DNA of 64,000 nt from Leptasterias polaris (Eukaryota > Echinodermata > Asteroidea > Forcipulatida > Asteriidae): positions 992,001-1,056,000 of the forward strand of contig JAZGTN010000178.1 in NCBI GenBank assembly GCA_037783415.1. Direction: 5' to 3'. The position numbers and the translations under genes are program-made. Shown one piece after another: positions 17,878-59,061 of this stretch. The notes beneath the pieces were generated by a model. That model did no database searches and had not been told where the DNA came from. It saw nothing but the letters and a program-made list of their open reading frames with translations. The stretch's first letter is position 1. The number at the start of each line of letters is the position of its first letter.

Positions 17878-18708
17878 TTAGGAAAAAGATGAAGAATCAT
17901 TAATATATATAATATAAATACAAAATAAGTGGATACAAAAGGGATACCAGAAATAGTATACAGATAAAAAGCGAGTGGAAAAAACTCAAATAGCGGAGTA
18001 GACGGAAAAGAAGGAAGAAAAGGTTTAGTGACTGATTTTAAACGTACCTTTCTTGTTGCAAACGACAACAACACCAGAAGGCAACTTCTTGCTTATTGTT
18101 AAGTGTTTTATGAAATTGAGGACAAATTGTTCAGGTTAGCTGGGCTAAGCTCATTATGAGCTTTGTTGTTTGATCATTTTAACAGCTGATATTTGTTTTT
18201 AAGGTTTGTTACAAATGAAGTTCTAGGTAGGGTTTGTTTTGTGCAGACATTAGGTTTGCGATACTGTTTTGTAGTAGACATATGTTTAACTATATGTACA
18301 CTGCAGTTGTACGGTGGTAGCAGTTACGATGTTAGCAGCTTTAAATTCAACGCTGATAGAAGAGTTTGAATCAACTGTTTGTTGACCAACTAGCTGTTGT
18401 GCAGTACTCATTATTTGGAACTCATCACCTGTTTTGGTGGAGGACAAGAATGAAGCCAGCAAGAACTCATGATTTGTTGAACTGTTCAATGAGATAATAT
18501 GGGTTTTATAGAAAGGTTTGGAGATGTGGTATGCAACTGAAAGGATAACACATTTGTTGTGAATGGAGAACAAAGGATTGGAATCAAATTAAACTGCTTG
18601 ACACTTGCAAACGTTGGATTGTACAATATGTACATGTAAGTTCCCTTTTTGTTTAACACAGGAGTTGTAAGTTAGTTAAAGAAGAACCAGAAAATGGTAA
18701 ATAACCTG

Positions 18709-18929: not shown

Positions 18930-19459
18930 GTTAGTACATGAATGAATAATATGAATAATAACAAATTATAAAAATTGCACTCTAGTATTTAGTAAATATG
19001 CAAAAATGGGTAATAATATCAATAGTTTGTATAAATACTTCAATGTTTGTGTTTGATGTGCTGGATAGAGTCTTCATCTGCAAGAACTTGTTCAATGTTT
19101 AAAGAAGTACTTGAACGAGAATTTTGTAACGGGGATGCTATTTAAACTTGTTTATAATGTGTTTGTTTGTGATTTAATTGTAATTTTGATGTTTTTACAC
19201 TTCTGGATTTTTCGTAATTATCGATCAAAAAATTAGGCCCCAACCTCAAGGTTTTGAAAAACTAAAAACACTTCTGCCGTTGGCGGCGCGATTCCATGTG
19301 ACCTCATTTGTGGGAGTTATAGCTTTGTAAACAAACAGGTAGACGCGTTGTTCAGTTGGGGACGTGTTGTTTATGCATGTGCTTTCGACAATTTCGATAT
19401 AGAAATCGTGTTAAAATCTGCTTTTACAAACGTGTCTTGGGTGCAAGGGTACATGTAAT

Positions 19460-36254: not shown

Positions 36255-36527
36255 GACCCGTGGGGGGCCGTCTGCAAGACTTTCAATTTGAGTCAATCAA
36301 AGCATGAATGGACAGAAACATCCTCTGAAAATAAAAACACATAGGAATAAGTAACTGTCTGTACTAGTTGCCAAAAGAAAAACTAGAAATAAAATTACAA
36401 ATGGAATATTTGTTAGCACAAAGCCCACATTGTCAGAATGGTGTTGCAATTAATTGGTGATCACCATTTCTCCTGTGAATCACATGTACATCGACTATAT
36501 AACTCCTTAGGATCAAAGATTCACCTG

Positions 36528-38803: not shown

Positions 38804-38817
38804 TCTGAATAAATGCC

Positions 38818-39490
38818 CTATTTTTTTGATGAAGCAGCGACAAACTGAAGAAACTGGGGGAGATGGATTTGAGGTTGGGGTGCTCGGTTGCTTGGCGAGG
38901 CTGCCGGGGTGTGGGAAACACTTGATGGCTGCAGCTTGCTAATGTCGACGGCTTGCCGATTCAAGGGAAAGAGCCCACATTTCCTGAAACCATTAATGGC
39001 ACTGGTCGCAATGGCTGATGATCTCCAAGAAATATTGAAGACCGCCGCAAAAGTCTTCTTTGTCACTTGGGCTCCAGGGTTGTCCGTCTGGTACTGGCGG
39101 ACGCAGTCAAACCACTCCTACTTCAGCGACTGGAACACGGCTACATCCAGGGGTTGGATCAGATGGGTGGAATGGGATGGGAGGCAATAGAGGATGATGT
39201 CATTATCTCTGCAAAACATAGCCGTCTGCAGGTTGACATGAGTGCTGTGTCCATCGACGAAGAGAATTACAGGGAGATGAATTAATCTTGACTTTACAGT
39301 TGGAAGGAACTGATTTGCGACCCATTCATAAAATACTTCAGAATCGATCCAACCATTGGAACTTCTTCCAAAGAAAGTGCCCTCAGGTGTTCCTGCCACT
39401 GGGTTGTAATTGAACCTAACCCCGGGAAATATCATCATTGGCGAAAGATAGAAGCCTGCTGCGTTGGCACACGCCATAACAGATTTCGAC
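38818..39490 (-). pseudogene. Pogo-like DDE_1 transposase 3' part, one nonsense codon
   Basis: From about 39490 the minus strand reads KSVMACANAAGFYLSPMMIF, FGRSSNGWIDSEVFYEW, VILFVDGHSTHVN (catalytic Asp) and LPSHSTHLIQPLDVAVFQSLK. A TAG (39118-39120) interrupts. The frame then resumes directly with EWFDCVRQYQTDNPG, TKKTFAAVFN, FRKCGLFPLNRQAV, to a stop at 38818. Apart from that stop, the C-terminal half is intact. The N-terminal DNA-binding half is absent: upstream sequence belongs to family X. It differs from the 5-kb copy. Confidence 0.75.
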
Positions 39491-39910: not shown

Positions 39911-39929
39911 CACTGAAAACAAAATCTTG

Positions 39930-40262
39930 TCATGCTGACAAGAAAAATCTTGTTTTGCCCGGGTGTCTAACGACAGGAATTCACTTGTCAACCTGACAAG
40001 ATGTTATCTTGTTTCTGCCTTGTCAATATCATGTCATTATCTTGTCAGTAGCTTGTCATGTTCTTGTCGGTATCTTGTCATGCTGTTGTCGGTATCTTGT
40101 CATGCTCTGGTCAATATCTTGTCATGCTCTGGTCAATATCTTGTCATGCTCTGGTCAATATCTTGTCATGCTCTGGTCAATATCTTGTCATGGTCTGGTC
40201 AGTATCTTGTCACACTTTGGTTGGAATCTTGTCATGCTCTAAACTGGTCAGTATATTATCAT
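39930..40262. repeat. Subterminal tandem repeat of element B
   Basis: About a dozen units of roughly 22 bp with consensus TATCTTGTCATGCTCTGGTC, more degenerate toward the terminus. Related CTTGTCATCATGACGAG sequence lies at the other end (48455-48475). Subterminal arrays are the usual transposase-binding regions of CACTA elements. Confidence 0.8.
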
Positions 40263-41150
40263 GGCCAATACATTTTTACATAATGCACACAATACACATC
40301 AAAAAAAGATTAATTTTGCAAGATTAAAGCTGCATTTCTCAGTTAACTTTTATTTTATTATGTACCCCTATGCTTAAATGGCAGTGTTCTAAACCAAAAC
40401 AAAGAGTTCAAATTTTGTAGGTATTTATATTGATGAGAATTTAAACACTTCACTTTTTTCCCTACATATTGACTCATGTAAATAAGTTTTCAGTGTTTTC
40501 ATATAATAATGTAACATATTGATTAATTATTTGCTCTCTACAATGTTTTGTATTTGTTGAGTCAGTATGAAATAAATGTTTTTGTCATCATCAACATTTT
40601 AACAAGATTACAAAATAAAAGTTTTAAAACTGTTCTAAGTATTCAAGAAAAACAGTTGTAACAACATTGTTTTCAACGATATTTGTAAAGGAAGTGTGTT
40701 CTTCGAAAAATCTTAAATTTCAAGATTATTTTTGAAAATTGTCATCAAACTCTGGAATGTATTTCACATTCATAGTCCCAAAAAGTGTGTAAAATAACTT
40801 TCCATTAACACTTTTTGAAAGTTTGTAGATTATCGAACGAAAAACCATGTTTATCAAGCGGAATTGTGAGTCCACTCTAGACAACAAAAATCCACTTTTT
40901 GCATGAAACAATATAGTGTTCACTTGACTTGGAATTCTCTTCAAATCTAATATTTCTGTTGTTTTTCCAGATAAATGCTTAAACAGTTTAAGTTTGGATA
41001 TTTTTGATCCATACAAATCTCAAGACCAACCCTTTTTTCAAGTTAATACAACTTTTACTTATTCAAAAGACAAGAACACATAATGCTTAAAACTCGGTAT
41101 GAGCATTACTGATAAGTGATCACCAGGGATCACATACAGGCTAAATCGTT
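40263..41150. other. No gene seen; 3' flank inside element B
   Basis: AT-rich sequence between the subterminal array and the stop codon of the SAMD3-like gene. Minus-strand open segments here are low-complexity. Confidence 0.4.
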
Positions 41151-44100
41151 TCACTTGGTTAGTTTTTCAAGCAGTGCACAAACACTTGGATGAACCTTTT
41201 CCTTGTCTTGTATGTTCAGGACAGGTCTCTGGAAGAACTGCATAGTTTTCTTCAAGGATTTGGGATATGATAAATTGAAAACATAGAAACAGGCAAAATA
41301 AACTTCAAAAGCAGAGAGCAAGTGCTTGGTTTCCAATATAGACTCCTCTTCCAGCATGACTGTGTATGTGATGTCTTCCTCTTCACGTTGGTGTATAAAG
41401 AGGTTCATTTGTGAGTTACCCTGAAAATGGAAGGAAAAAAAGGAATATAAATACGGGAGATAAAAGAATGAAACAATTGTGGATGAGATTTGATGGATGT
41501 AAACAAATCCTGTTGGCATGGGTTTCCCCTCATTCTAGACCTGGAACATCCCAAATGTTACAACTCAGGAGGTTTACAGACTCTGTGCATTACCAGAAAT
41601 ACAAAACTACGGGATGGACACAATATGGACTATTTTTGTTTTTACTTTTGATGACTGTTTTATTTCTTTCAAGAACATTTGAATGATCAAGGTTTTAAGG
41701 AGAAAATCCTGAAATCAGGAAAAGTGACATGCCTGAAATATAAAAGCAATCAAGAAAGTAAGGCTGAATGAAATTCAAAACTTGAGAGAAATCCAAAGGA
41801 TTTATTCATTATCCTTGAAGATGTAATTTGTATATGACACCTTATAATTATTGAACAATACATCCTGAATTCAGGGGGGGGGGGGGGCTGGATCCTGATC
41901 CTTCTCACCAATCAACTTTGTGCGTGCTTACACAAATACAAAGGCACAATGGCACCATGGCTGAGAACTTTTAAATCATCTTACCTGTTCAGTCAGTAGA
42001 TGATCTAGCTTCTCCTTGAGTAGTATCGGTACCACAGCGATTGAAGCGCAATATGCTTTGCCTGCAATAGATTGATACTATTGTTATAGTTCAATATTTC
42101 TGAATTATTTTTACTATAGCTGAAACATACTAAACCGAGGTACATTTTTCAATGTTAGACATGTTTTTATTATACATTAGATCAAAAAGGGGTACCAATC
42201 TTTTGAAAGAACAGTTCCCTGGTAAACTATTTTTATGGTTATTAATATTACAATTTATTCACATTATTGTGGCTGCCCAAGAAAAGTCTTAAAAGGAAAC
42301 AAATTTGAAATTATATTCTTTGTGCAAGGAATGCAAATTTGAAAGTGGGACTGTCTTGTTTTAAAGAAACTGAACTAATTTTGAACAAAAAACATGTCAA
42401 TCCAGATTTATTGATAGCACTCACTGGAACAGACAGCAAGGCAATGGGGGGGGGATCATGAAAGCACAGTGATTCCATAAGGCCTTGTGGTTCAATTTGA
42501 TAGAAGACCAATGCTGCACAAAAACATAAAATAAGTATTTACCCTGACGGTTTTCTTCCGCTGTTTCTAGTGATGCCAATTCCACCAGCTTCTTCATGGC
42601 AACATGATCTTGCTTCTTGGCCAGAGTATAGAGCTGTTCATGGTACTTTTCCAAACCAGTTTCCAGCTTCCTCCCCAGGTCTTCTGTTGCTATGCGTTTG
42701 AACTCTTTCAAGACCTGTATACCAGATAAACATGAATACCAGTTGCACATATAAGCAATAAAGATTGAAAGTTGGCTGTCATATTATTGTACATGTTTCA
42801 GATAGCTATGAAGCACCAACCGAAAGAGCATCATTGTTTGGCCTTGACAAACACTTTCAAATTTGTCCCTCGATCGGCCACCATACACACATACAAAGAG
42901 AGCTTGCCTGACATACAAAAATGAATCAAGCAGCAGCTATCTATCCACTAGAAAATAATAGGTTGCATGCGTTTTTCCAGGAATACAAAAATGGGTTTGA
43001 ATAAATCGATTTTGTAATTAGTCAATACAGTATGCATTGTACAAATGATAATATGAATCGCAATTTCAATGTGTTTTCAAAGAGACATACCTCGTTTCCA
43101 CTTGCTAGAAGTACCGGAAAAACTTCTTTGATATCTGCCACCAAAGGACTCTGTTTCACAATAAACTCTCTGCGATCAGCAAATGTCAGATCCATGAAAC
43201 GATCAAGTCGTTTTTGGTCAGGTTTCCTCTTGAACAGTTCATCCCTCATTGCAGCTTGATGCCTTTTAATTGATGTATCGTCTTCACCCTCTGGTCGTTG
43301 ACTGAGATAGTTTTTAAGACCCCACATCAGCTTGCCGCTCATCTTTGGAGGTGGTCCTCCTGTAGTTGGATCTGAAAGTCGGCGCTTTCCTGGCACACAA
43401 TTTGTATCCCTTCGTCTTCTGTCATTTTGAAATCGATATTGAATTCTTTGACGCCACAGATTCTGTGAACAAGCAACATTTAAATAAGTCTTACTTATCT
43501 CAAGGTAAAATGAACATTTGTGGCGAGGGGGGCACTATGTGCTGACCCCGGTCCCTGTACGACCAAAAATAGCCCGGACCTGATAGGGTTGAGCCATCTG
43601 ACCCCTGAATATCCCCTTTCAAAACCCTGCAATTTCTTACCATTGACAAATTGCCATTTGACACAACTTTGGGAAACTTCTCCAGGAATGCTGAGACTAC
43701 TTCTGTGTACTGCCATTCTTTCGGATAACTGGGTAACAGGAAAACACAATGTCAATAAGTTATTACACTATGGATAGATTATTCACCAATCAATTGCTGT
43801 GTTCTCTTTCCCTCCAACTCCCCTCTGCTTACACCTTCCCCATTCCCTTTTGTGTGTAGAATAGTTGCAAAAACAAACAATTTGGAACCTCTGACACAAC
43901 CCCCCATATCTCTTTTCTGGGTGTGAGAGTCATGTACAGATTAGCTTTTTGTTTTTAAATTTCATTAGGCAAAACCAAAGTTTGAGCTTTCTAGTTTGAA
44001 AAATAACACATCCACTATAGTGGTTACAGTTTGTACCCCTAAGCTTGGAATATTTCAATAACAGCAGTTTTACAACATCTCTTGCAGTTTTGATGAGAGA

Positions 44101-45305
44101 ATGAGATATATAGGCATAAAGCTAATCATTTTTAGGTATTTTTGAACAACAGTAAACTGTAGATCAGGGTACTGAGTGAGGTTGAATCAGTATGACTATG
44201 GAACAAAGATTCTTCCGTCTTCAAGGGCTGCGTATGTTCTTAAGAGAAGCTTAACTTGCTAGCAAAACAAACTCTGAACTTACTATGTATACTTTGTGAC
44301 TTCTTGGTAGATGGCATCTGTGACCTGTGACCTGTCTCCTCTGTTGAGCTGTTCACCACTTTGCAGCTTCTGCAGTACTCCAGCCCGCAGAGCATATACT
44401 GGGAATTTAAACTTGATTGGCCAAACACGGAAATCCCTGGTTGCTGTTGCCGTGCATAAAGTAGATCTTTTAAAAGAAAACACAAATTTTAAATTAGGCA
44501 ATTCAACTTCATTTACTTGATTATTTGTTTTGAGGAGTACAGAAATATATCATGTGCTAAGTGCTTTCCCGATTTGTCCTTTCAAATATTAATCCACAGA
44601 CTGTTTTTGTTATTCCATTTGCTAGGGGTGGATTACCAAGTGTTGGAAAATTCCAGTGAATAAATTGTAAGGTTGTCATAATTACTTTTAAATTCTGACT
44701 TAAGCACAATGCCATAAATTTAGCAATTTGGGCATTTAAAAACCACCCCTCCCTCATAAAATGTTCAAGGTTGGACGGGCATCAGTTGAGAGGGGGCACG
44801 TCCCCCCTGTGCCCCCCTTAGTTACGCCACTGTTGCTAAGTTGCGCCCATTAATATACAATTGTCTGCTGAAACGTGGTCCACAGTGTGATGTCAAGTGA
44901 TCATCAGTTCTCATGTTCAATAAAATTTCACATTATAACTCATGGTATAACTAGCATTGTTTTTAAGCATCAAAAGACAACTCACCCTTCACCATCTTTG
45001 TCTGTTTCAATGCTGCTGGAAGGTGAAGACAGTGCAGCAGGCGCGTCATCTTTGTCAGAATCATCAGCTTCAGTCAAAACTTGTAATCTCATCATGCTTT
45101 CCAGAATTGATGTTGGATCAACATTAACCCAATCAGCAAAGTCTTTATCAAAGTACTGAAGTAGCATTGGCTTCCTATCCCTTGGTATGTTGAATTTGTT
45201 ATGTATGGCCTCAATTACCTCATCCATATTTCCCTTTTCAGTTGCAGATTCAAACTCAATGATCTGCTTCGAACTCTTATGTGTGACATGGAATTTAAGA
45301 CGCAT
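41151..45305 (-). CDS. Element B accessory protein: PB1-like head + SAMD3-like body
   Basis: Seven exons join in frame to 490 residues: 44995-45305, 44284-44466, 43641-43728, 43091-43462, 42543-42714, 41985-42061, 41151-41420. Residues 1-80 look like a PB1 domain (MRLKFHVTHKSSKQIIEF ... LQYFDKDFADWVNV ... MMRLQVL), a head-to-tail self-associating fold. An acidic Ser/Asp linker follows. The body matches the SAMD3-like proteins of fish and invertebrates: VWPIKFKFPVYAL, YYPKEWQYTEVV, NLWRQRIQYRFQNDRRRR, SGKLMWGLKNYLSQRPEGED, LTFADRREFIV, VFPVLL, and FYVFNLSYPKSLKKTMQFFQ. All introns have GT/AG and no stop intervenes. It lies 107 bp downstream of the transposase-like gene on the same strand. By position it is a CACTA second gene; its activity is unknown. 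Confidence 0.85.
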
Positions 45306-45412
45306 TTTCTGAAAACATAAGTTTTTACAATTCTATCAATACTATGTAATGATGATCATATACCACAGCTACTTTTTCCAGTTAATACAGGTATTGACTT
45401 TGGTGGATGCAT

Positions 45413-47860
45413 TTATACAGATATCTTGTGTCTAAGAATTACTAATTTGTTATCACTGTTGGTGGGAAAGTCATACACATCAAGTGGATGGTAGTCAATA
45501 GCATCCGTAGGTTTAATCAAGATATACCTATGTAGTGGTGTCACTACATATGCATGGTAATGGACACTAAAGTGTAAGGTGTTAAGGTATGTACACAAAA
45601 GGTATGGAATGTTGCCAATGAGAAAGCAGTCCTCAATCATGAGAAACACGGGAAAACTGTGACTGTATTTTAAAATCACACATGAGCCACAGCAGTATTT
45701 GACACCATTGACCTTAATGCAGTTACTCTCAAAAACTCGCTCTTGACCACCTAAATGTGGTCGCAATAGTTCTTGAACTTCCTTCAACAACAGCCTGACA
45801 AGACTGAGTTTTCCACAAAGTGTGTCAATATGCTGTGCTTCCAAGTATTTATCTGATGCTAAGAATATTGTTTGCATGAACTGGTGTCTGAAGGCCATAC
45901 TTTTACAGATGTTCTTTCTGTTTTTCAATCCATGAGTTATTTCTTTGAAGTAGTTATGTTTGCCTTCAAACCTGAGTGTCCAACAGTGGATAAGTGGGCC
46001 AAATTGCAGAATTTGCCAAGGATAATGCAATGTGTAGTGGCCTTTGGGTTTCATATTTACATCAGGAAATTCCCTTTTGTACATGTACATGAAATCCTCT
46101 ATAAGATCTGAAAGAAATCTCACATCACTTTGTGAACAAACTGGTGCACATGATGCTTCCACCATGAACAGGAGGGCCAACAAAACATCCCACTTATTGT
46201 CGGCCTCAGGAATTGTGTCACCAACCAAAAGTGGGAACAGCCTCAATAAGCACCAACACTGCATTGCTGTTTGCTTCACCCTAGTTGGCTTATTTGACCT
46301 GTCAGATTTACCATAAGGAAAGCTGTCAATCCTGGTGTTCAAAAACTCGAGAGTGAAGTAACCTTCAGACACACAGTGCAAAACCAGATTCTTAAGCACT
46401 TCAGGCACAAGCCCTTCAAACAGATCATGGGCAATGTCTGAAGGAAGGCCTCTGGTAACATGAAAATACTCTAGCTTATTAAGAGGAGAATCATTTTTCA
46501 CGCCATATGTTGTCTTCAATCCTTCATCTTCAGCAACCATTGTAACTTGTGCATTGTAACTTTCCATTGTTCTCATTTCACAACTGCTGGTCGTCAGACA
46601 ATCATTAAGGTCTGTTCTTGTGACCATACAGAAACGACTGACCCTTAAGCCACTGAAACTTTCGTTGAATCCTCCTACTGAATGAGCACCAAGATTGTCT
46701 GCTGAAACAAATGACACTGAGCCTCTAAACTGATACTGATGACCATTCCTGTTCACACTAACACCTTCTCTTTCTAAAAGTGAAAGATCTCTAAGTAAAG
46801 GTTCCAGGACTTTCTTTAAACCATACTTTTTCAAGTGTTTTGATTTGCACAGAAGAGCAAGCTGTATGACATACAACTTTGATCTGTATTGTGGTGACAA
46901 GTTTCCAAGCACAAAATAAAATGCTGCAAGTTTGTAATTCTTAACCTTGTTTCCAAGTGGATTTACAATATTGAAATCATCATAATATAATTGGACCTGT
47001 AAACTTGGGCATTCAGAAGAAAATAATACATTTCCACTGTATACAGCACCATCACAAAAGTCTCTCAATTTACCATCCTCAGACTTGTGTCCCTGCATTA
47101 CCTCTGCTAATACATCCTCATGTTGCAAAAGCAACTCAAGTGTTTTCAATATGGGTATGTACTGTGTAGATGCACATTTGCCTTGAGTGTCTACTCCAAG
47201 AACAAATTCTACTGGTTCATTGTAAGGAAACTCAGACTGAATGTAACGACTCAATTGTCTGTTATCTTCCAAACTGTGAAATATGTCTTCCAATTCTGTT
47301 GACCGAATAACAGTCATGGCAGTTGCAATCTCATCCTGGTTTACAGCATCTTCAAGTAGAGCTGATTTCAACTCAGACAATTCCTTTGCTTTAAACATCT
47401 GCAAAATATTTACAAGCTCGGACGCAACAAAACTACAAACAGTCCCTGGTACTTTGTGTATTTCTCTTAAATTCAGAATAAACAGAGCTGCCTTCTTCTT
47501 TAGTAATCCAATTGGTATGTTTTCTACTGCAGCTTCAATGTTCACAAGTTCTGGACCCTGCAAACCCACCTGCTGCTCAGCCTCCTCAGGTGCTTCTATA
47601 TCATTCAGATCTAGCCCAAGTTCAATTGCATTTAAGAAATGCATGCGGTAAAAATCCTTGTGAACAATTTTTATATGTTTGATGAAGCATCGGACTGTAG
47701 AAAGATTCTTATGACACCCATTTATATCACAATTTATCTTAAATCTGCCATTGCCAATTTCATGTATGAACCGATAATGGTTTAAGACTCTTTTGAAATG
47801 AGGTGTTTCATATTCACAGTGAACACAGACAAAAACTCTGTTGTTGTAATCCTCTTCCAT
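45413..47860 (-). CDS. Element B C2H2 transposase-like protein, 815 aa
   Basis: A single uninterrupted exon starts at ATG 47858-47860. Two C2H2 fingers open it (VCVHCEYETPHF ... HYRFIH, then CDINGCHKNL ... HIKIVH). The large core has three blocks expected of a DDE/RNase H-type enzyme: SADNLGAHSVGGF (Asp, with conserved His), HVTRGLPSDIAHDLFEGLVP (the DxxHD-EG block seen in TNP-like transposases) and CWTLRFEGKHNYFKE (Glu). GHYTLHYPWQILQFGPL precedes the last block. The same blocks occur in the 915-aa protein at 55219-57966. It probably binds the subterminal repeats and mobilises the element; this is inference, since family membership rests on motif order and on the CACTG element ends. Confidence 0.8.
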   Translation of the reverse strand: MEEDYNNRVFVCVHCEYETPHFKRVLNHYRFIHEIGNGRFKINCDINGCHKNLSTVRCFIKHIKIVHKDFYRMHFLNAIELGLDLNDIEAPEEAEQQVGLQGPELVNIEAAVENIPIGLLKKKAALFILNLREIHKVPGTVCSFVASELVNILQMFKAKELSELKSALLEDAVNQDEIATAMTVIRSTELEDIFHSLEDNRQLSRYIQSEFPYNEPVEFVLGVDTQGKCASTQYIPILKTLELLLQHEDVLAEVMQGHKSEDGKLRDFCDGAVYSGNVLFSSECPSLQVQLYYDDFNIVNPLGNKVKNYKLAAFYFVLGNLSPQYRSKLYVIQLALLCKSKHLKKYGLKKVLEPLLRDLSLLEREGVSVNRNGHQYQFRGSVSFVSADNLGAHSVGGFNESFSGLRVSRFCMVTRTDLNDCLTTSSCEMRTMESYNAQVTMVAEDEGLKTTYGVKNDSPLNKLEYFHVTRGLPSDIAHDLFEGLVPEVLKNLVLHCVSEGYFTLEFLNTRIDSFPYGKSDRSNKPTRVKQTAMQCWCLLRLFPLLVGDTIPEADNKWDVLLALLFMVEASCAPVCSQSDVRFLSDLIEDFMYMYKREFPDVNMKPKGHYTLHYPWQILQFGPLIHCWTLRFEGKHNYFKEITHGLKNRKNICKSMAFRHQFMQTIFLASDKYLEAQHIDTLCGKLSLVRLLLKEVQELLRPHLGGQERVFESNCIKVNGVKYCCGSCVILKYSHSFPVFLMIEDCFLIGNIPYLLCTYLNTLHFSVHYHAYVVTPLHRYILIKPTDAIDYHPLDVYDFPTNSDNKLVILRHKISV

Positions 47861-47984
47861 GATACACCATGTATACTATTACTAACATGTACTGTAAGAT
47901 ATGCGAAGCTTCACTTCTTTCGTTCTAAATTTACACATTCCTGTTTGCACGCAAACGCATACAGTTCACCCACCATGCCCTGTG

Positions 47985-48072
47985 TACAATACATATACAT
48001 ACATGTACATACATTACACGCAAGACAGTACACACACAGCAGTACAACATACATGTACATGTACATGTACAG
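47985..48072. repeat. TACATG/ACATGT microsatellite
   Basis: Short alternating ACATGTACATAC units, a palindromic word that recurs throughout the window. It lies upstream of the element B transposase-like gene. Confidence 0.8.
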
Positions 48073-48496
48073 TAGGCATTATGTAACGATGGATAGTGAA
48101 AGGTTCGTCTGCTGATCGAAGAGTTTACCTATAATAATTAAATTAATGCTTCAAACAAAAGACTAAAGTGGGCTATGATCATCAAACATAAAATTTACGT
48201 TTTACCTTTTGATGAAACTGTACACAAATTGATATAAAAGGTGTCAACCAAAGATTGTAAAGCGGCCAATGAACTGTGCACTTGAAAGTTTCTGCATCTG
48301 CACTGGAGCGCGGGAAATTGTATATTACTACGCATGCGCAAGCGTGTGCCAACTATACCCGCCTCGCTCGACACCGCGCGCACGTAGTGAGTCTTGTCTT
48401 ATCTCGTCAGTGTGACACAGAAGACTCGTAATTTACCAATGACAAGGACGATTCTTGTCATCATGACGAGAACACGCGCGCTGAATGTTTTCAGTG

Positions 48497-49063
48497 TGAA
48501 GAGAAATCTGCAACACCTTACGGTTGATCACACCATCTTTGGTCTTAATTGTACCTCGAGCACTCGGGATTGAATTGCTCACATCACCCCTGTTGAAGAG
48601 ATCATTGACCTTTCTGTGTACGTCATCAGACAGGGCATCTTTTCTTCTCTTCCTTTGCGTCTCCCAACCCTCCTCAGACCCATGTCTGAACACTCTTGCA
48701 GATTTTGCGAGTGATACAACACACTGAAGTGAGCATGAGCTATTCCGGAGGTTTTTCTTTTTGACCATCAATGCCTTTGCCATCAGTCGTTTCAGCCGAA
48801 TGTCCTTAACACTGCGCTTCAATTTCAAATCAGACAAAGTGGTTTTCACAGATTCTCCGATTGATGTGTCTGCAAAGATCTTTTTCCTCCATGATGGTGA
48901 CAACTGCTGAATTTTTTTCACGATGGCTTTCTTTGAGCGTGGTGTTTGTACTTTAATGCTTGCAGAGAATGCATTCGCCTTGGCAACAGAACTGGTTGGA
49001 AGAGATTGAAGTATTCGTTTTTTGCATCGAGATGTGGCTGTTCGGTCTGCTGCTGATAACTGT
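48497..49063 (-). pseudogene. Family X transposon-like gene, piece 2
   Basis: The minus strand is open from TTATCAGC near 49060 to the element B boundary: SAADRTATSRCKKRILQSLP, TPRSKKAIVKKIQQLSPSWR, DIRLKRLMAKALMVKKKN, RKDALSDDVHRKVNDLFNRG, ending KDGVINRKVLQISL. It is highly basic, as expected of a DNA-binding linker. It joins piece 3 across the TG duplication. At its other end it appears to continue to piece 1 (59062-59285) through a shared ACA triplet that now flanks element A plus gypsy sequence. Confidence 0.65.
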
Positions 49064-49084
49064 TATGGGACTACTTTTCGTATG

Positions 49085-49580
49085 ATGGCGAGTGTCAAAC
49101 CTCAAATTAAAACCTCGAAAGTGTACGTTCGGTCAAAATAAGGTACGTTACCTGGGTCATATTATATCTAAGGATGGAGTAGCCACCGATCCAGATAAAA
49201 TGAGCATTGTGGAAAACTACCCAGTGCCCCAAAACCTATCACATGTAAGATCGTTCCTTGGTATAACAGGGTATTACAGGAGATATGTAAACAAATATAG
49301 CCAGATAGCGGAACCGTTGACCAATCTTACGAAAAAAAATACCCCATTTGTATGGTCAAAGGATTGTCAAAAGTCGTTTGAAACACTCAAACAGAAACTT
49401 GTAGAACCACCCATCTTAGCCTATCCTAAGTTCGATGGAACTAAATTTATTCTACACACAGATGCTTCAGTGACTGGTCTGGCATACATTTTGTCTCAAA
49501 TTCAAGATGGCCAAGAAAAAGTAATTGCATATGGTGGTCGAAGTTTGAACAAGTCAGAGAAGAACTACACTGTAAAAAAT
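49085..49580 (+). pseudogene. Gypsy (Ty3-type) reverse transcriptase/RNase H fragment
   Basis: The plus strand encodes LKLKPRKCTFGQNKVRYLGH, FLGITGYYRRYVNKYSQIAE, PLTNLTKK, FVWSKDCQKSFETLK and ILHTDASVTGLAYILSQ. This is the end of a Ty3/gypsy reverse transcriptase and the start of its RNase H, whose first Asp is in HTDAS. It ends abruptly at KSEKNYTV, where the sequence passes into the CACTGTAAAAAATTACC terminus of element A. No LTRs, protease or integrase remain. Confidence 0.85.
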
Positions 49581-49589
49581 TACCCGTAA

Positions 49590-50165
49590 AATTTACGGTA
49601 GAAACTTGTGCAGCGAGTTGCCAGCCTTTTACCGTATTTTTTACGTGTGAACCGAATTATAATTTACGATAAACCGTTATTTTACGGTAAAAAGTTTGTA
49701 AATACTACGGCTGACGTAATTTTGCTCACCATTAATGTTACATACTTTTTAGCGTGTTTTTTTTACTTGTGGACCGTATTCTTATTTACGCTACACCATT
49801 TTTTTTCTCGGTGAAAAGTCTGTAAATACTACGGCAAACGTATTTTTGTTAACCGTAAATCTTACATACTTTTTAGCGTGTTTTTAACTTGTGGACCGTA
49901 TTCTTATTTACGCTAAACCATTTTTGTTTTTCGGTGAAAAGTCTGTTAATACTACGGCTGGCGTATTTTTGTTAACCGTAAATCTTAATGCAGATCATAC
50001 TTTCAGCTTTTTTTTTACTTGTGGACCGTATTCTTATTAACGCTACACCATTTTTATACGGTGAAAAGTCTGTAAATACAACGAGTGACGTATTTTGGTA
50101 CCGTAGTTGTTTGGTAGACCATACTTTTTACCGTTTATTTTACAGAGTAATACCGTTACTAGTAA
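49590..50165. repeat. Left subterminal repeats of element A
   Basis: Four imperfect units of about 120-140 bp share ACTTGTGGACCGTATTCTTA, TTTACGCTACACCATTTTT, CGGTGAAAAGTCTGTAAATA and a GACGTATTTTGTTAACCGTA block. The composition is dominated by CGTA and TACG words. Confidence 0.8.
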
Positions 50166-50169
50166 TCCT

Positions 50170-50820
50170 CCAAAACACTTCCGACCCCCCCCCGAAAAAA
50201 AACCAGTTGAAAGATGATGTTGTTTTACTTCTATGTCCTGTTTTTAGAAGCTACATTTTTGTGATGCATCTATAGTCTATGATGTCAACATGGGCAGATC
50301 AATGACAACAATGATCAGTTAAGACATTTTCATTTAAATCTTGAAACTTAACATTTTTATTTTATTTTCACCATAAATACACACTCTCATACTGCATAGT
50401 GCAACCAAGACACAACTTGAGTTTGAAATATTATCTTGTGTATAGCATCAAATTGTGTATATCATAAACTTTGCTCAAAACCATTATGCACAAATGGTAG
50501 GTTCGAACACTAGGAATGTTCAATGGGCATGAATATAAAAACACTGTTTTATAAATTTTAACTTGAAACTATTACAACTTGTACATAGCATAGTCACTGC
50601 AGCACCAACTAATAACATGCTAACAGTATGAGATAACTGTCACAAATTATTAGAATTGCCACTAAATAATCAATTAAACACTTTTATGTGTGACTTTGCT
50701 CAAAACCATTATGCAATTGCATAGACCACTGAGCACTCCCGGAACACTTATCTCAGTCAGATTAAAAGTTGGAAAATTTACTATTTTTTGTTGGCAATTT
50801 GTCTGCTAGAAAGAACCCAT
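50170..50820. other. No gene seen; 3' flank inside element A
   Basis: Contains a C-run (50187-50193) and AT-rich sequence before the stop codon of the SAM/SAMD3-like gene. Confidence 0.4.
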
Positions 50821-50821
50821 A

Positions 50822-53800
50822 CTAGTCAGTCCATTCGTGATCAGCAATGTGGTTGATGAGTGCCAGAACCTTAGCACTCATCATAGAGTAAGTCTTGCCA
50901 CGTTGGCTGGTCTTCCTGCCATGATCAGGATTGATCTTCAAGAAACACCTTTTGAAAGAGAGCAGAAAAAGAAAAATCCAAAATATACATTATTCACATC
51001 AATACAGGTTGTAGCAAAAGAGATAAAGAATATGCTGCACACACTTTAAACGGCATCAGAAAATAAATCAAAATTTCATGCAATGTGTATAGACTCCAAT
51101 CCGTTTTTGAAAAACAAAACCAAACTTGTGGGTTATGTCAGCCTGTGGATTTGTTTCTGCAGGCCTTGGGAAAGCACTGAATATACAACTTAACTTATCA
51201 CATATCATTGTAAGGGTAAAAACAAAAGTTGGGTTTGAAACTTTGTATGATGGAGGTTGCAGTGTCATAATCTGTCTTTGAGTTAGGATGTCTCTGAAAA
51301 GAACCGTTGCAAGTTTCCATCAGTATGCTCTGATCATCTTCAGGAGAATGCTGGACTCTGATGCTGCATGCTGCTTAAGAACTGTTGATGCAGATCAGCT
51401 TAATAATGCATCATGGCAGGAAACTGAAACTTGATGATGCATGGGAAAGCTCAATCCTCTGCAGGATCCTGAGAGTGGTGTCCTTCGGTGTGGGTGTGGG
51501 TGTGGGTGTGTATGTGTGTGTGTGCTCTCTGTTTCAGTAGGTACATGTACAAGCACAGGGACAGTGAGGAGTGGTGGGTGGGGGCTAGAGAACACAAGGG
51601 TATAGATGACCCTGAAAAGCAGTCTAAAAGATAGGGGAACTAAAGGAGACTAATGGGGCCTAGGGAGTAACCATGGATATAGGAGATCCATTGGTCAGGA
51701 AGAGAGTGAGCCAGATGTCACTTATGTGGAATCCGATGTCTTTATGGTGGTGCATATAGATCTTGATGGCCTCTCTGATCTGTCTTGGGTGCTGTGTCTG
51801 GATAGAGGTGATGAGTTCTGCAGCATCCCAGGCACCATAGGTCCAACTTTAGCACATTCACAAGGACTCCATGCATGGGTGGAGGGATCTTGCTTGTCCT
51901 TGTGTCAATGGAGAGAGCGATGCAATTTTCTTGCAGTACCTTGATTCCTACTATCAAGCATCAACAATTTGTAAACAGCATGCATAGTCAGAGTCCAGCA
52001 TGCTCCTGAAGATGATCAGAGCATACCGATTGAAACAAGCTAAAACCAACGGTTCTTTTTAGAACCACCCCAACTCAGACAGATTATCATTACATGGTTT
52101 CACAAAGTCAATATTCATTGCCCCTTATTAATCTTTTTAAATCACGGTTGACATGTATGTCAATTTGCAACATCACCTCAACATTGGGAGTTGACCATTT
52201 CCAATTTGTTAGGAAGCTTGTATCAACTGTTCATTCTAAAACCACTTATTTACAAGAGTTGGGGTAAAAACTCACATACCGTTGAAAGAACTCGAGAGTA
52301 GATGAACACGGCAGTGGATAGATTATGTTGAAGCAGTAGAAACTTGCCAGAAGAAGGGTTAATGCTGTGTCAAATATGCCGATGTTGGCCACTGCCACAC
52401 GATGGTCGATCACCAAACAGTAGTTTGCACAGTTGAGAAGGCAGTCTCCTACAAGTATGTAATAAAAAATTATTTAGAAAGACACTGTAGATGATGAATT
52501 GTCAATCCGGTTCAATAGCAACGAGAGTGCATCTTTAGGTAAATTTAGTAAACTTACCGCAAGCAACAATACATGGCGTGTCTGGAATGTCAGCTAGCCC
52601 TTCCACTTCAGCAGGAGTAGATGTTTTCTAAAAGTACACAATATAGAAATAGTTTTTGAGAACACTTATGTTGAAGTTTATTTGCACTTTCACTGTAAAA
52701 GAAATATGACAGACAACAAATTTGTTTAAGGTTAATTTAAAAAAATAAAACAGAACTATGCCCATTCCCAAAGTCACACAAATTGAACTTCAGATTAGAC
52801 TATGGGGTAAGTAGCATAAATTAATATCAACAGTCACCTAAAACATCCATACTGATCAATAATACACTATGGAAATAGTGTTAACTTTACTCTTAAGAAA
52901 AAAATTAAACTAAATACCGAGTTGGGTTATCTCATTGTTTTCTGAGGGTTACAAGGAGAATGGACGTTTTTCTTGTCAGAGGTTTTCAAGTATACAGTTT
53001 CTAGAGCTTATTGCAATTTCGACCTCAAGATTATTGTGCTGAAGACAAATTTCAAGTGTTACAAATTTAATATGTCTAGTCACTTTTGGGTAAACACTAA
53101 AAATGTTACAAGGCAAAAGGGGGACAAAGCCTGACCCTGGTTGATGTCAACCATAACATCTTCTGTTTTCTGTTAACAAAGTTTAAGGCCAAACATGTAG
53201 ATTTAACACATATTTCAATTCATTTCTTACCTCTGTCAGAAAGAAGAGACCATTGGGTTTCTCATCAAAGTAGGCCATTACAGCAAGTAGCAGAGCACTT
53301 GTCTCAGAGGTCTGATCCTTCGAAATTCTTCTGGAAGAATCAATGTCACTCATTACACTCATAACAGCTGTCTTCTTAACGGTCTTCATGAAGGTCAGGA
53401 TTCTTGACAATTTAGAGTCTAGTGCAGAACACAATGTCTCCTCAATATTCAGTCCTACAAGCTGCTTGAAGTGGCTACTCATCCCAGCCTTTGTGAAGAG
53501 GAAGGGCCAGTCCTTCATTAGAACTACAATGGGTGCACCGCTGTTAATATCCAATCTTTGGATAAAAAATGTCAATGTCATTTTCTCCATCACTGCTGAC
53601 ATGCTGTCATCAATATTTCTGGAGTTCTGATGGAGATCTTGAAGTTCTTCTTGTACTACACGAAGAGACTCCTCATCGTGCCCCTCCGGTGGACCATCTG
53701 GCTGCCAGGCAACGCATCCATACTTATCTTTCTTTGGAGCTGGTGGAGTTGGGTTTCCTTCTATCTCAGCCGTACTGCGTTTCCTCTTGGACTGTTGGTT

Positions 53801-55238
53801 GTTGCTAGACTTTCCTCTATTGACATTCTCCCACCTGCCCTGTAGTTGCTTGGCTAGTGAATGGTACCCGTTTCCAACTCTATCACCTTCCAGTCTATCT
53901 TCGAGAGAGTCAGGGTGCGCATGAACAATCTTTCTCGCAATAGCTTCACAGGCCTTCCACAGAGGGTGAGAGCGAATTTTAACAGCTTCTACGATTACAG
54001 TTCTAACCATGGCCCTTCGATCAGCTGGGTGTGGTCTGGTTTTATTTTTCAGACTTTTTCTGAATCCAGAGCTCAGCTGATCCCAAGGAATGGGAAATTC
54101 TGATGCCCAGTCAGCATTAAGGGTGTGTGGGACTGAGGGTGGATCACTCGTAGCCTGGGGGGAAGAGGTGGATGGTGATTCTGGAAGTTCATGAGGTTGA
54201 GCAGCAGATTCTGAAAAACTAAAATGAATAAATAAAAATAAAATGAACAAAAACAAAATGAATAAAATACAATAAAAACAACTTAACTGAGCTAGAAGTT
54301 CCAACAATTTTTTTTTCACAAATAAGGGGGTAACTTTGTTTAATTCAACAATTGATTTTTTGTTTATAGTCCAGCGTATAAGCACTTTCATAACACAAAT
54401 TTGCACTTTTTGATAAAAACCTGAAGATTGATATGTTCAGTTTGATTTTTAACAAATATGCCACATGTGGAGCCAATTGTTAAGAAAACTAGGTACGCAC
54501 CTATCCAAGAAATTTCATTTTCCGCATGGCTATGAAGTCCATTATGCATTTTCATATACAAACTTTGAAACTCCGGGATCACTCAAGGATACTTCAACAA
54601 GCTTAAAGCACTTAATACCCTTTTTCCTGACCCTCATATGGGTGGGGTGGATACATTCAAAGGTGAACAAAAACTTCCACATTGGGGTATTTTTCGCCCA
54701 TAAGCCCCAAGGCTATGGGTGGTGTTTGAACTGTATGGTAAAGTGCACATTTTGTACACATCCACGGACTATTGGGGCTCAAAAACATTCACTGATGTGA
54801 CTTCAGAGGACAAAATACTTATTTCGACCAATGCAGGTTGCAAAATTCCCTCCGTCCTCCCTCCCTCCCCCCCCCCCCCCCCCCCCGCCATTTCATGTTT
54901 TGGACCACACATTTTTTAACAGATTAAAAAGGTGTCAGAATGATCAGGCCAAGATACTGCATCAAGGCAGCTGAGGTACCCTAAGTTAAAACATCACAAT
55001 TAAGTTTATAGCCCACCACTACTTAAAAAGAATATAGTTTACCTTTAATTCCCCATGCTTGGAGTAATTTTCGAATCTGTACCGGCCGCAAGACAGACTT
55101 CAAGTCAGCTTCCTGTACATATGGAAGATCACTCAATGTTTCCACTCCAGCATCAGTCAAGCAACTTAGAAGTTTCTCCAGAATCTCATTAGACAATGAG
55201 GGTAGGGTTGCCTCAATATTATTCCTCAGCTCCTCCAT
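50822..55238 (-). CDS. Element A accessory protein: SAM-like head + SAMD3-like body
   Basis: Five exons join in frame to 513 residues: 55043-55238, 53231-54210, 52558-52627, 52280-52448, 50822-50948. Residues 1-65 form a SAM-like five-helix pattern (LPSLSNEILEKLLSCLTDAG ... DLPYVQEADLKSVL ... QIRKLLQAWGIK), a self-associating module. A Pro/Ser linker follows, then the SAMD3-like body: FPIPWDQLSSGFRKSL, RRAMVRTVIVEAVKI, HPLWKACEAIARKIVHAHP, SLAKQLQGRWENVNR, MKDWPFLFTKAGMSSHF, YCFNIIYPLPCSSTLEFFQR, FLKINPDHG and a C-terminal HIADHEWTD. All introns use GT/AG, the last holds an inverted-repeat insertion, and no disabling change is seen. The start codon lies inside the 3' end of the transposase-like gene (20-bp overlap). 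Confidence 0.85.
51295..52075. mobile_element. Inverted-repeat insertion in the last intron of the SAM/SAMD3-like gene
   Basis: Left arm (about 51298-51372: AAAAGAACCGTTG, CAGTATGCTCTGATCATCTT, GAATGCTGGACTCTGA) is mirrored by the right arm (about 51978-52066: TCAGAGTCCAGCATGCTCC, AAGATGATCAGAGCATACCG, CAACGGTTCTTTTTAGAACC). A related arm recurs near 63188-63262 (CTATCAGAGCATACTGATTG, GGTTCT-type end). It is a non-autonomous element of unknown class. A GTGTGGGTGTGGGTGTG simple repeat lies inside. Confidence 0.65.
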
Positions 55239-57966
55239 GTTCTATGTGTATACATGAGAGAGCATGATGCAGAGGTAGCACTGTTTGTCTCTTAAACTTG
55301 TAGACAGGCAAGGGATAGTAATCTGACAAGCTTTCTACATTTGTGCAAGAGAACTTGGTATTTTGGCTTTTAAGTCCATATACTCCCAAATCAGAAATAT
55401 ACTCAGATTGACAGTTCTCGGTTACAATATAAACTTGAACACCTTTGACTACAATGAAAACAATTCGGCCAAACACGACATTTATCCGATCTGCTTGAAT
55501 GACCACATAAAGCCCTTTGCAGTAAGTTGTCCCTTTGTATGTAACAGAACGAGATTCACATGTTTCATTTGGATTGAAATCAAAGCCAGAAACAGCTTCT
55601 TGAATGTCATTATTGTAAGTAGACGACAGAAAAGCAGTGGCATTTTGTACTTGCACATCTGGAGGGAAAATACTTCCTTTACCCAGATATGCTTGGAGTA
55701 GCTGATGTCTTTCAGCTAGGGTTGAGCATATATTCTTGAAATTTTGAAGCATCCGGGCACACTTCTTAAAGTACGAATGTTTGCTTTCAAACCTGAGTGT
55801 CCAGACCCTCATTAAGGGTCCAAAATCCAAGATCAGACTTGGGTAGTGACACAAGAAGTGATGCTTGGGTTTCAAAGTCACCTCTGGAAAGAGATCTTTG
55901 CGTGACTGGACATACTCTTCTATAAGTACATTTAAATATGCAACTGTTTTCTTTTCGATCTTTGGAGAACAAATTATATCCACAATTTCTCTCAATAAGA
56001 GAACTAGTTTCCACACTTCATCGGTGTAATCATTAATTCGATCTCCAATAAGAATTGGGAGTAATCTCAGCAAACACCAATTTTGCACAGCATGACCTCC
56101 AATTTTGTCCCCACTTGCTTTGACATCATTTGGTTTGTTATTAGCATCACTACCAAGAAATCGAAACTGGCAAAGTACTCGGTTCAGTTGTTCATATGTA
56201 AAATACCTCTTTGTTTTTACAAGGTATTTGATGTACAATGCTAGATCATAGGACACAACACCTTCAAAAAGGTCGTGTCCCAAGCATGGTGGGAGTCCAG
56301 GTTGGCATACATGAAAGTGTGTTAGTCTGTTAAACACAGAATTAAACTTAATCCCCGTTACTGGCTCACCATGTAATGCTATCTGTTCAAGAGCTAGATT
56401 ATAGTTCTGAACTGTTCTCTTTGCACCAATCACCCGTGGGTTGCTTTGAAAATCAACTCTGCTAACTGTGCAATATCTGCAGAAATTTGAGGTTGTACTG
56501 AAATTCTGAGTAAACCCACCGATAGTATGGGACCCGAGATTGTCACCAACTATACAGCACAGTGTACCGTGCAAATTGATTCTACCTTCTTTTCCAAGGA
56601 TAACTGAAACACCCTTGTGTTCTAATTCCTTGATATCCTTAATCAATGGTAACAGTACTTTTTCCTGGCCAAATTCTATGAAATCCTTGTTCCGACACAG
56701 AAGAGCAAGTTGCATGTGATCGATGTTTGATCTGTTGTGTGGAAGGAAATTTACAAGTGTAAAATATACACCAAGAACTTTATGCTTCTTTTTTGCGGAA
56801 CCTAATGGATTGACCACCTCAAATTCGTCTTGATATAACAGCACTTTTAGGGTGTGCAAGGATTCAGTGAACAATTTGTTTCCTTTGAAAACGTTCCCAT
56901 CAGTGACATCAGTCAATACATCAGACAAAGTGTCTTTGTGTGTTTCAAGTGTTTGATAGTACTGGTCACATACTGCCTTTTGTTTGAAAAGTGACTTTAA
57001 ACTTTCCAAAATAGGAACGTACTGAGCAAAGCACTGCTTTCTGTTTTTATTCAAACCAAGAACAATTCGAACTGGCTGAACAAAATTAAATTTTGATTCA
57101 AAGTATGTCGTTCTCGTCTGATTTGTTCGTAATGGCCCCTTATTACATGCACTTAGAAAGTCGTTTTCTACTATCTTAAGAACTTCTTGTTTCTGACTGG
57201 CTGCAATGTTCAGATCTGTCAACTTCTCATCAAGCCTTTTACATACAATCTGTTTTTCAAGGTCATGAATAGATTGAAACTCACTTATAATAGTTTGAAT
57301 AACAGATGATGGTAGCAAATTTTTAGCTTGTAGTTTTAGATAAAACAATGCCAAGCACTGAATGAACTGCTCCTCTGAGTTTTCTGTTAAGCAATCATCA
57401 GTAGAATCACTGTAAGATTCAGTATCACCCACAGTCTCTTCTACATGAACTGGTAAGATCTCCAAAGTTTGGTTCTGAGGTCCAACTATTAATTCAGAGT
57501 TTTTGCTTAAGTTGACAGTTGAACTACTTCTAGTATGATCTGTGCCGTTTCTGTGGCAACGCGAGAGGTGTGCACTGAAAGATGATTTCTTTGAAAACTT
57601 TTTCTCACAGTCAGTAAAAGGGCATTCAATTTCAACTTTTGAATCAATGTGTGTCCTGAGATGTGCCAATAAGTTGTGCAAACTTTTAAATGTACAGCTA
57701 CAACGAGGAACCCGGCATGACAAAGTGTTTACTTCATGATGCCCGACTTCAGTACATTGACTGGCATGAATAGCACAAGACTTTCCATGAATCGAGTGAT
57801 CACGATATATATGACTCTTAAAAGATTCGTAACTTTGGAATTTACGTTTACACCATGTTACTCCACATGGAAACTGGTAGTTTGCCAAGCTTCGATGAAA
57901 TGTAAAATGATGGGCATACGCCTTTAATGAAAGACTTTCAAAGTTACACAGCTCGCACTGATACAT
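55219..57966 (-). CDS. Element A C2H2 transposase-like protein, 915 aa
   Basis: A single open exon starts at ATG 57964-57966. Four C2H2-type fingers occupy roughly residues 1-140 (CELCNFESLSLKAYAHH, CGVTWCKRKFQSYESFKSHI, CRVPRCSCTFKSLHNLLAHL, CPFTDCEKKFSKKSSFSAHL). After an acidic linker comes the core shared with the 815-aa protein of element B: IVGDNLGSHTIGGF, HVCQPGLPPCLGHDLFEGVV, HHFLCHYPSLILDFGPLMR and VWTLRFESKHSYFKKC, the probable Asp/His/Glu blocks of a DDE-type transposase. It ends IEHGGAEE with TAA at 55219-55221, overlapping the next gene's start by 20 bp. Longer by 100 residues than the element B protein, mainly through two extra fingers. Confidence 0.8.
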   Translation of the reverse strand: MYQCELCNFESLSLKAYAHHFTFHRSLANYQFPCGVTWCKRKFQSYESFKSHIYRDHSIHGKSCAIHASQCTEVGHHEVNTLSCRVPRCSCTFKSLHNLLAHLRTHIDSKVEIECPFTDCEKKFSKKSSFSAHLSRCHRNGTDHTRSSSTVNLSKNSELIVGPQNQTLEILPVHVEETVGDTESYSDSTDDCLTENSEEQFIQCLALFYLKLQAKNLLPSSVIQTIISEFQSIHDLEKQIVCKRLDEKLTDLNIAASQKQEVLKIVENDFLSACNKGPLRTNQTRTTYFESKFNFVQPVRIVLGLNKNRKQCFAQYVPILESLKSLFKQKAVCDQYYQTLETHKDTLSDVLTDVTDGNVFKGNKLFTESLHTLKVLLYQDEFEVVNPLGSAKKKHKVLGVYFTLVNFLPHNRSNIDHMQLALLCRNKDFIEFGQEKVLLPLIKDIKELEHKGVSVILGKEGRINLHGTLCCIVGDNLGSHTIGGFTQNFSTTSNFCRYCTVSRVDFQSNPRVIGAKRTVQNYNLALEQIALHGEPVTGIKFNSVFNRLTHFHVCQPGLPPCLGHDLFEGVVSYDLALYIKYLVKTKRYFTYEQLNRVLCQFRFLGSDANNKPNDVKASGDKIGGHAVQNWCLLRLLPILIGDRINDYTDEVWKLVLLLREIVDIICSPKIEKKTVAYLNVLIEEYVQSRKDLFPEVTLKPKHHFLCHYPSLILDFGPLMRVWTLRFESKHSYFKKCARMLQNFKNICSTLAERHQLLQAYLGKGSIFPPDVQVQNATAFLSSTYNNDIQEAVSGFDFNPNETCESRSVTYKGTTYCKGLYVVIQADRINVVFGRIVFIVVKGVQVYIVTENCQSEYISDLGVYGLKSQNTKFSCTNVESLSDYYPLPVYKFKRQTVLPLHHALSCIHIEHGGAEE

Positions 57967-57969
57967 GTG

Positions 57970-58734
57970 GCATGTGCCATAGGCACAGAGTCATATGTAG
58001 ATCCGACTTTATTTAAAAAAAATAAAATCACTGCAATCTTGAATTTGCAGATCAAATAAATCTGGCAGCCCACTTCTCAAAATAATATGATACAATGGCT
58101 AGTACTAGTACGTAGGCCTATAGGCTACCCCGATCTTTCAACAATTCAAAGCCATGACCTAGCCCATATAGCCCTAAGCATGCTAAAACTAAAGGCCCAA
58201 TCTATTCTAATCTAAGTAAATCTGACCTAGATATATGGATAATTAATATGACATGAATGATCTGACTGTGCAAATGGACCTATACTATGGCCACCACACT
58301 GCAGTGCAGTGTTTACATTCAGTGCACTAGATAGTTTTTACAGCACTGTACATGTACTGTGTTGCATCATGCATAAGAACTACATGACATTGTGCACTGA
58401 CTTGCGGACAAAATAAATACACTTTTATGTCCCGACGGCAACATTAACACGGCAACTGTCAATCTATGTATATTTCTCTAACCAAATACAGAACGTTTTC
58501 ACTTGTAAAGTACCAAATTACCTCTAAATCATCAGTTCATACAGTACAGCTATCTAGGATGCTCAACGGCAAGCATACAGTGAATTGAAGATGGCGGCGG
58601 CGACTGGCGGAAAGTTTGGTCGGTTATTCGCGCTCTCTACGTATCTGCGCATGTCTGTTGTGTGCTAGCTCAGCAGCGCATGCGTGCACAGGCGCAAACA
58701 AACAAATCGAACATCCCATGGTGCATTGCGCGCC
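57970..58734 (-). promoter_or_regulatory. Upstream region of the element A transposase-like gene
   Basis: No coding region. It is AT-rich near the gene and becomes GC-richer at 58580-58720 (TGCGCATGC, GCGCAAAC, AGATGGCGGCGGCGACTGG), a composition that would suit a promoter. There is no clear TATA box. Confidence 0.3.
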
Positions 58735-59058
58735 GGTATTTTACAGGGTTACAACGTACTTTTCACCGTAAAAATTACTGTAATTTTTAAAAAACAATTC
58801 CATGGTGCATCGCCATCCGGTATTAACGGGGTTGCACCGTAAAGTCAAGGAAAATTGTGTTACAGTATTACACCGTAGATATTTGCGTACTTTTCACCGT
58901 AACAATTATGGCGATTTTTTTTAACAATCCCATTGTGCATTGCGAGCCGGTATTTTACGAGGTTGCACCGTAAAGTTAAAGAAAAATTTCGTTACGGTAA
59001 TACACCGTAGCTGTTTACGTACTTTTCACCGTAAAAATTACGGTAATTTTTTACAGTG
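58735..59058. repeat. Right subterminal repeats of element A
   Basis: About two and a half units of roughly 140 bp share CCCATGGTGCATTGCG/CCATTGTGCATTGCGAG, CCGGTATTTTAC, GGGTTGCACCGTAAAGT, TACACCGTAG and CGTACTTTTCACCGTAA. They run up to the inverted CACTG terminus. Confidence 0.8.
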
Positions 59059-59061
59059 TGT

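Follow-up and report, generated by a model that had tools for sequence, protein, structure and literature searches.

Two adjoining CACTA-type elements in a starfish genome pair a transposase gene with related second genes that have SAM-like or PB1-like heads

Introduction

In plant CACTA transposons, transposition requires TNPD and also TNPA, a protein that binds subterminal repeats (PMC2613891). For animal CACTA elements the accessory protein is a gap: a spliced second protein of a schistosome element was predicted to be TNPA-like, and relatives in other animal elements were not found in that study (PMC1636069). Do animal elements have a conserved partner of this kind? The question is raised by a 64,000-nucleotide stretch of the starfish Leptasterias polaris (GenBank assembly GCA_037783415.1, contig JAZGTN010000178.1, positions 992,001 to 1,056,000 of the forward strand; hereafter the window). 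A sequence-only reading of positions 41151 to 57966 had proposed two intact CACTA-like elements, A and B, which share a C2H2 transposase gene followed by a SAMD3-like second gene and which exchange the head of the second protein, SAM in A and PB1 in B. Here we call A the right and B the left element; the proposed range marks coding limits and not element ends.

Results

We consider it reasonably probable, at roughly 0.6 for the two statements taken jointly, that these adjoining same-strand elements are autonomous-looking CACTA/EnSpm-type (CMC) cut-and-paste transposons and that the product of their second gene would do in animals what TNPA does in plants, with a body that binds subterminal repeats and a head that brings the ends together. 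The left element spans 39911 to 48496 (ends CACTGAAAACA...) and the right element 49568 to 59058 (ends CACTGTAAAAAATTACCGTAA...), both with genes on the minus strand. Each has termini CACTG...CAGTG, and thus terminal inverted repeats (TIRs) that start with CACTG and CA..TG ends, with a 2-bp TG/CA target. TIR alignment scores were 24.0 for the left and 42.0 for the right element, against maxima of 18.5 and 24.0 among 200 mononucleotide shuffles per element. The left element is flanked on both sides by a 2-bp target site duplication (TSD), TG on the plus and CA on the minus strand. Removal of the element and one TSD restores an interrupted open reading frame (ORF), ...GVINRKVLQISL|QAAYNMFIDMNP... 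(peptides VLQISL|QAAYNMF). The ends 39911/48496 are preferred because this pair has both the TSD and the in-frame empty site; a right end at 48412 (CACTGACGAG...) was rejected, its inverted partner being absent from the window. For the right element, the target TG lies at 49061-49062 and 59059-59060, and removal of 49063 to 59058 again leaves an ORF in frame (...RNRALQRIR|QLSAADRTAT...) at a TG/CA target. The frames at both empty sites were followed for 60 bases to either side.

Between the first TG and the right element lie 505 bp of other DNA (49063-49567, plus strand), a Gypsy reverse transcriptase/RNase H fragment that matches RT_RNaseH_2 of Pfam at E 1.4e-21. Because it fills precisely the gap from target dinucleotide to left terminus, it is possibly filler DNA from repair after a one-sided cut at that end. 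The proposal of two CACTA-like elements is thus borne out by TIRs that beat shuffles, in-frame empty sites and the catalytic layout described below. The elements look complete, as "intact" implied, except that the right one has the Gypsy fragment at its left end; the two gene pairs lie within the range first given, but the element ends lie beyond it.

Both elements interrupt one older minus-strand ORF at TG/CA, with flanks at 59059, 49062-48497 and 39910-39416. Open frames continue at 49062-48433 and 40003-39416, and no Pfam match above cut-off was found in the two pieces scanned.

The left transposase (45413-47860, minus strand, 815 aa) and the right transposase (55219-57966, minus strand, 915 aa) are 32% identical to each other. 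A C2H2-like N terminus precedes a CMC-type layout in both, D, D, H(3)H, E in the left and D380, D475, C496/C499, H703/H707, E727 in the right protein. In an alignment of 14 chosen sequences (the two window proteins and 12 of 65 relatives), D380, D475, C499, H703, H707 and E727, in right-element numbering, are kept in all; C496 is kept in 12 and is Ser in the left element and in P0005. The order D, D, C(2)C, H(3-4)H, E is that given for EnSpm and its kin in PMC12730594. Profile matches were below threshold for Transposase_21 (PF02992; E 0.26 left, 0.01 right), and one relative, P0010, reached E 9.4e-6, yet stayed below the curated cut-off. The C2H2 label of the sequence-only reading holds only as a likeness, the best Pfam matches (E 8.3e-4 and 0.0016) both being sub-threshold.

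Relatives of both genes were compared as protein sequences. Named transposase relatives come from sea cucumbers, a brittle star, starfish, a sea urchin, a mussel, an isopod and an annelid. Partial matches to Patiria (73% and 69%), seen across the searches with both genes, point to a starfish as the probable host. No relative of the transposase or of the second gene was found in viral contigs. Among prokaryote genome contigs, transposase relatives occurred on two (L001 and L002); the second gene was not seen in their ORF lists, which were not searched by profile, and L001 stops 27 bases past the match. Both contigs are filed under an Aquifex metagenome-assembled genome and encode animal-type CACTA transposases, so that this assembly is probably contaminated.

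In both elements a multi-exon second gene follows the transposase on the same strand, as the two-gene plan had stated. The left gene (41151-45305, minus strand) has seven exons (45305-44986, 44466-44284, 43728-43641, 43462-43091, 42714-42543, 42061-41985 and 41420-41151) and the right gene (50822-55238, minus strand) five (55238-55043, 54210-53231, 52627-52558, 52448-52280 and 50948-50822). Every one of the 10 introns in these models has GT-AG borders, and P0001, P0002, P0070, P0072 and P0073 align across exon junctions on both sides. Both products are in frame, and the right one has 513 aa as first given; the left one has 493 aa, not 490. A search with a two-row alignment yielded at least three left-type relatives (P0001, P0002 and P0003), and one with the right protein as single query at least eight, including the fish proteins P0070 to P0074; together they gave at least 11. 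Among the matches listed, five of six fish relatives cover 98-100% of the right second protein. The crinoid Anneissia has relatives of both types, P0003 and P0075, the latter without a head. In the gene model of P0003 (Anneissia japonica), a PB1-like head and the start of a second-gene body are joined to a Helitron-like N-terminal domain.

The bodies of the two second proteins are homologous, as had been claimed. They match each other in BLASTP at 3e-13 with 21% identity, and profiles of the left family (three sequences) and the right family (six sequences) align by hhalign with 99.5% probability and E 2.4e-22. The alignment spans left columns 124-499 and right columns 113-529, reaching almost to the C termini, where both bodies share the stretch FYxFNxxYP...FFQR, and leaves the heads outside. 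Sequence and profile searches of the Protein Data Bank with bodies and heads gave nothing below E 0.039. The body may resemble SAMD3; that name is absent from the 11 second-gene relatives among the matches listed.

With moderate confidence, the head of the right second protein (residues 1-65; 55044-55238, minus strand) is SAM-like and that of the left (residues 1-80; 45066-45305, minus strand) PB1-like, the support being sub-threshold for both. PF00564 matches two of three left-family heads (best 2.2e-5), with the left head of the window itself unmatched, and the whole-protein scores of P0001 (19.5 bits) and P0003 (21.8 bits) fall short of the cut-off of 23.6. P0001 is labelled PB1 domain-containing in UniRef. 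The left call rests on two relatives; a single-sequence structure model of the left head was poor and its Foldseek matches meaningless. The claim of unlike heads therefore stands in that the heads differ and lie outside the shared body, while their identities as SAM and PB1 both stay below threshold.

Each element carries its own subterminal motif. In the left element, CTTGTCA occurs 15 times in the first 650 bp, twice at the right end and twice in the interior; the left array (39911-40240) has a 22-bp period from 40022, and the right end (48390-48496) combines the TIR with two CTTGTCA copies (three of CTTGTC). In the right element, ACCGTA occurs 10 times in the first 650 bp, nine times in the last 450 bp and nowhere in the interior, and GGTGAAAAG three times in the first 650 bp, with three inverted copies in the last 450 bp and none in the interior. 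Its repeats form 122-bp units on the left (49580-50135) and 132-bp units on the right (58713-59053). When the first 650 bp were resampled with a Markov model (300 each), the mean counts of ACCGTA, GGTGAAAAG and CTTGTCA were 1.01, 0.00 and 0.25 (maxima 6, 0 and 2); all these counts are descriptive because the motifs were chosen after the repeats had been inspected. The 400-bp ends of the right element share nine 8-mers, against a maximum of one in 182 interior pairs, and those of the left element two, against a mean of 0.05 and a maximum of two in 181 interior pairs. Subterminal repeats thus stand out at either end of the right element and, in the left one, mainly at a single end. This layout is the one bound by TNPA-like proteins in plants, according to PMC2613891.

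The second gene is also linked to such a transposase elsewhere, as two database gene models indicate, although models of this kind can be wrong. In fish, P0074 (Xyrauchen texanus) has about 60 residues of a right-type transposase (E 3.1e-22), immediately before a SAM-like head and the body; its head alone matches the right head at just 0.057, whereas the body gives 1.3e-70. In the isopod Armadillidium vulgare, P0055 joins a transposase to a PB1-like head and then the start of a body. Against the left second-gene family, the tail gives 8.7e-10 in a four-row file and the whole protein 6.4e-8 among 67 rows; PF00564 did not match the tail. Such fusions amount to one of 11 second-gene relatives among the matches listed and one clear case among the 65 transposase relatives. 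The other relatives, which were available as proteins and not as DNA, speak neither for linkage nor against it. The argument for linkage is that two independent gene models join the same genes in the same order. A sea cucumber protein, P0017, was not counted as a third fused model: its match is marginal (E 0.04 among 67 rows), and P0061 (0.0093) and P0036 (0.02) outscore it in the same left-type profile search. The right second protein, compared with all 76 fetched proteins, matched no transposase relative at E 0.01.

A transposase tree was built from the 55 of 67 rows with at least 600 aa, the 12 shorter rows being dropped. The left transposase, P0055 and P0017 fall in one group of 18 with weak support (86/46), nested within a 28-row clade (99/98). 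The right transposase forms a group with P0034, P0027 and P0048 (98/82), on a long branch (1.86) whose placement the tool marks as unsure. The transposase fragment of P0074 shares 62.5% identity with the right transposase and no more than 44.1% with any of the other 11 rows listed. The "exchange" of heads between the elements is not upheld, because the PB1-linked transposases (the left one, P0055 and, marginally, P0017) group together and the SAM-linked right transposase, to which the fish fragment is closest, lies elsewhere. With PB1-linked and SAM-linked transposases in separate groups, a single ancient replacement suffices, and heads that follow deep transposase lineages would fit this better than ongoing exchange.

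Other mobile elements occur in the window. A third CACTA-type transposase gene lies at 32382-33705 (minus strand); its part 32382-33356 passes the curated cut-off of Transposase_21 with 33 bits, and the gene is distant from the present set (best BLASTP 2.5e-5, to P0031). Two THAP-domain ORFs each have, no more than about 4 kb away, a sub-threshold match to a Mutator-like transposase, these ORFs and matches being at 36513-37178 and 38528-38938 (minus strand) and at 19415-19879 and 23358-23867 (plus strand). A DDE_1 transposase/endonuclease fragment is found at 17535-18092 (minus strand).

Discussion

How might the two genes work together? The DDE transposase of gene 1 would cut at the CACTG ends. 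The product of gene 2 would be nuclear, its conserved body binding the subterminal repeats of its own element, and its SAM-like or PB1-like head would self-associate and join copies on both ends, thereby pairing them; the head may in addition regulate the promoter. Both proteins may be made from one pre-mRNA by alternative splicing. In both elements an AG stands three bases before the ATG of the second gene (TTTTCAG AAA ATG and CACATAG AAC ATG), which has a chance of about 1 in 16 per element, and together with the fused gene models this suggests a single pre-mRNA spliced two ways. Such a transcript has been described for Spm (PMC1636069).

The same observations could be read in other ways. 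SAM and PB1 are common host modules and also occur in chromatin and signalling proteins. The second gene might therefore be a captured host passenger, acquired by transduplication and unrelated to transposition, as is thought for the PB1 domain in a short 5' exon of plant MUGB genes (PMC8616336). We regard this as quite unlikely, because gene order and strand are the same in two deep transposase lineages, fused models occur in fish and isopod, and the body is kept across both lineages; a passenger would hardly have stayed with the transposase for so long. Somewhat less improbable, though still unlikely, is a second protein that acts in anti-silencing or promoter regulation rather than in end pairing. 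In plants, TNPA has the further effect of reactivating a methylated promoter (PMC1636069), and the left-element repeats are almost all at one end, far from the transposase start. In the right element, however, the two ends carry mirrored repeats in comparable numbers, which fits end recognition, although a regulatory role is still compatible with them.

A further reading, which we hold possible but doubtful, takes the two heads as marks of anciently separate accessory families, with no useful module swap within one element type. The tree does place PB1-linked and SAM-linked transposases apart, and identity between the bodies is just about 20%. Against it, the bodies can still be aligned almost from one end to the other, up to the C-terminal motif, and so at least one replacement or gain of a head is required. 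Set beside these alternatives, the TNPA-like reading of gene 2 is the one we prefer.

CACTA elements with a TNPA-like partner are already known; no conserved animal partner with SAM-like or PB1-like heads turned up among the titles and abstract openings listed in searches of open PMC papers. Maize En/Spm (TNPD and TNPA) and other plant CACTA elements share with the present ones CACT-type ends, subterminal repeats, a multi-exon second gene after the transposase region on the same strand and possibly a shared transcript. The present ends read CACTG and those of plants CACTA, and the heads here are SAM-like or PB1-like. The TSD is 2 bp here and 3 bp in soybean Tgmt* (PMC2613891). SmTRC1 and other animal CACTA (TRC) elements are of Transposase_21 type, a profile that the present transposases match below threshold; they too have a 2-bp TSD and spliced second proteins predicted to act like TNPA, and 2-bp repeats flank seven of 14 schistosome copies. 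By contrast, the TRC ends reported begin with CCC, and TRC second proteins are described as without detectable relatives in other animal elements (PMC1636069), whereas the present body has echinoderm and fish relatives, and an isopod protein contains its start. The CMCT clade has the same D, D, C(2)C, H(3-4)H, E layout, CA..TG ends and TSDs of 2-5 bp; in the main text of its account the word "zinc" occurs 0 times, and we saw no mention of such a second protein (PMC12730594).

In MUSTANG-B (MUGB) the PB1 domain sits on the transposase-derived protein itself, but the PB1-like head of the present elements on a separate accessory protein. These Mutator-derived plant genes encode PB1 in a short 5' exon (PMC8616336), in which they are similar to the left element with its PB1-like head.

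A second protein common to echinoderms and fish, with its start seen in an isopod, with unlike candidate self-association heads and with repeats at the element ends, makes end pairing by a polymerising protein directly testable. More tentatively, animal CACTA/EnSpm elements may share one conserved TNPA equivalent, its end pairing driven by a polymerising head that can be replaced (SAM or PB1); vertebrate SAMD3, which we take to have many copies in fish, could then be a domesticated or still mobile gene 2. If it is true that SAMD3 belongs here, an unexplained vertebrate gene would gain an origin.
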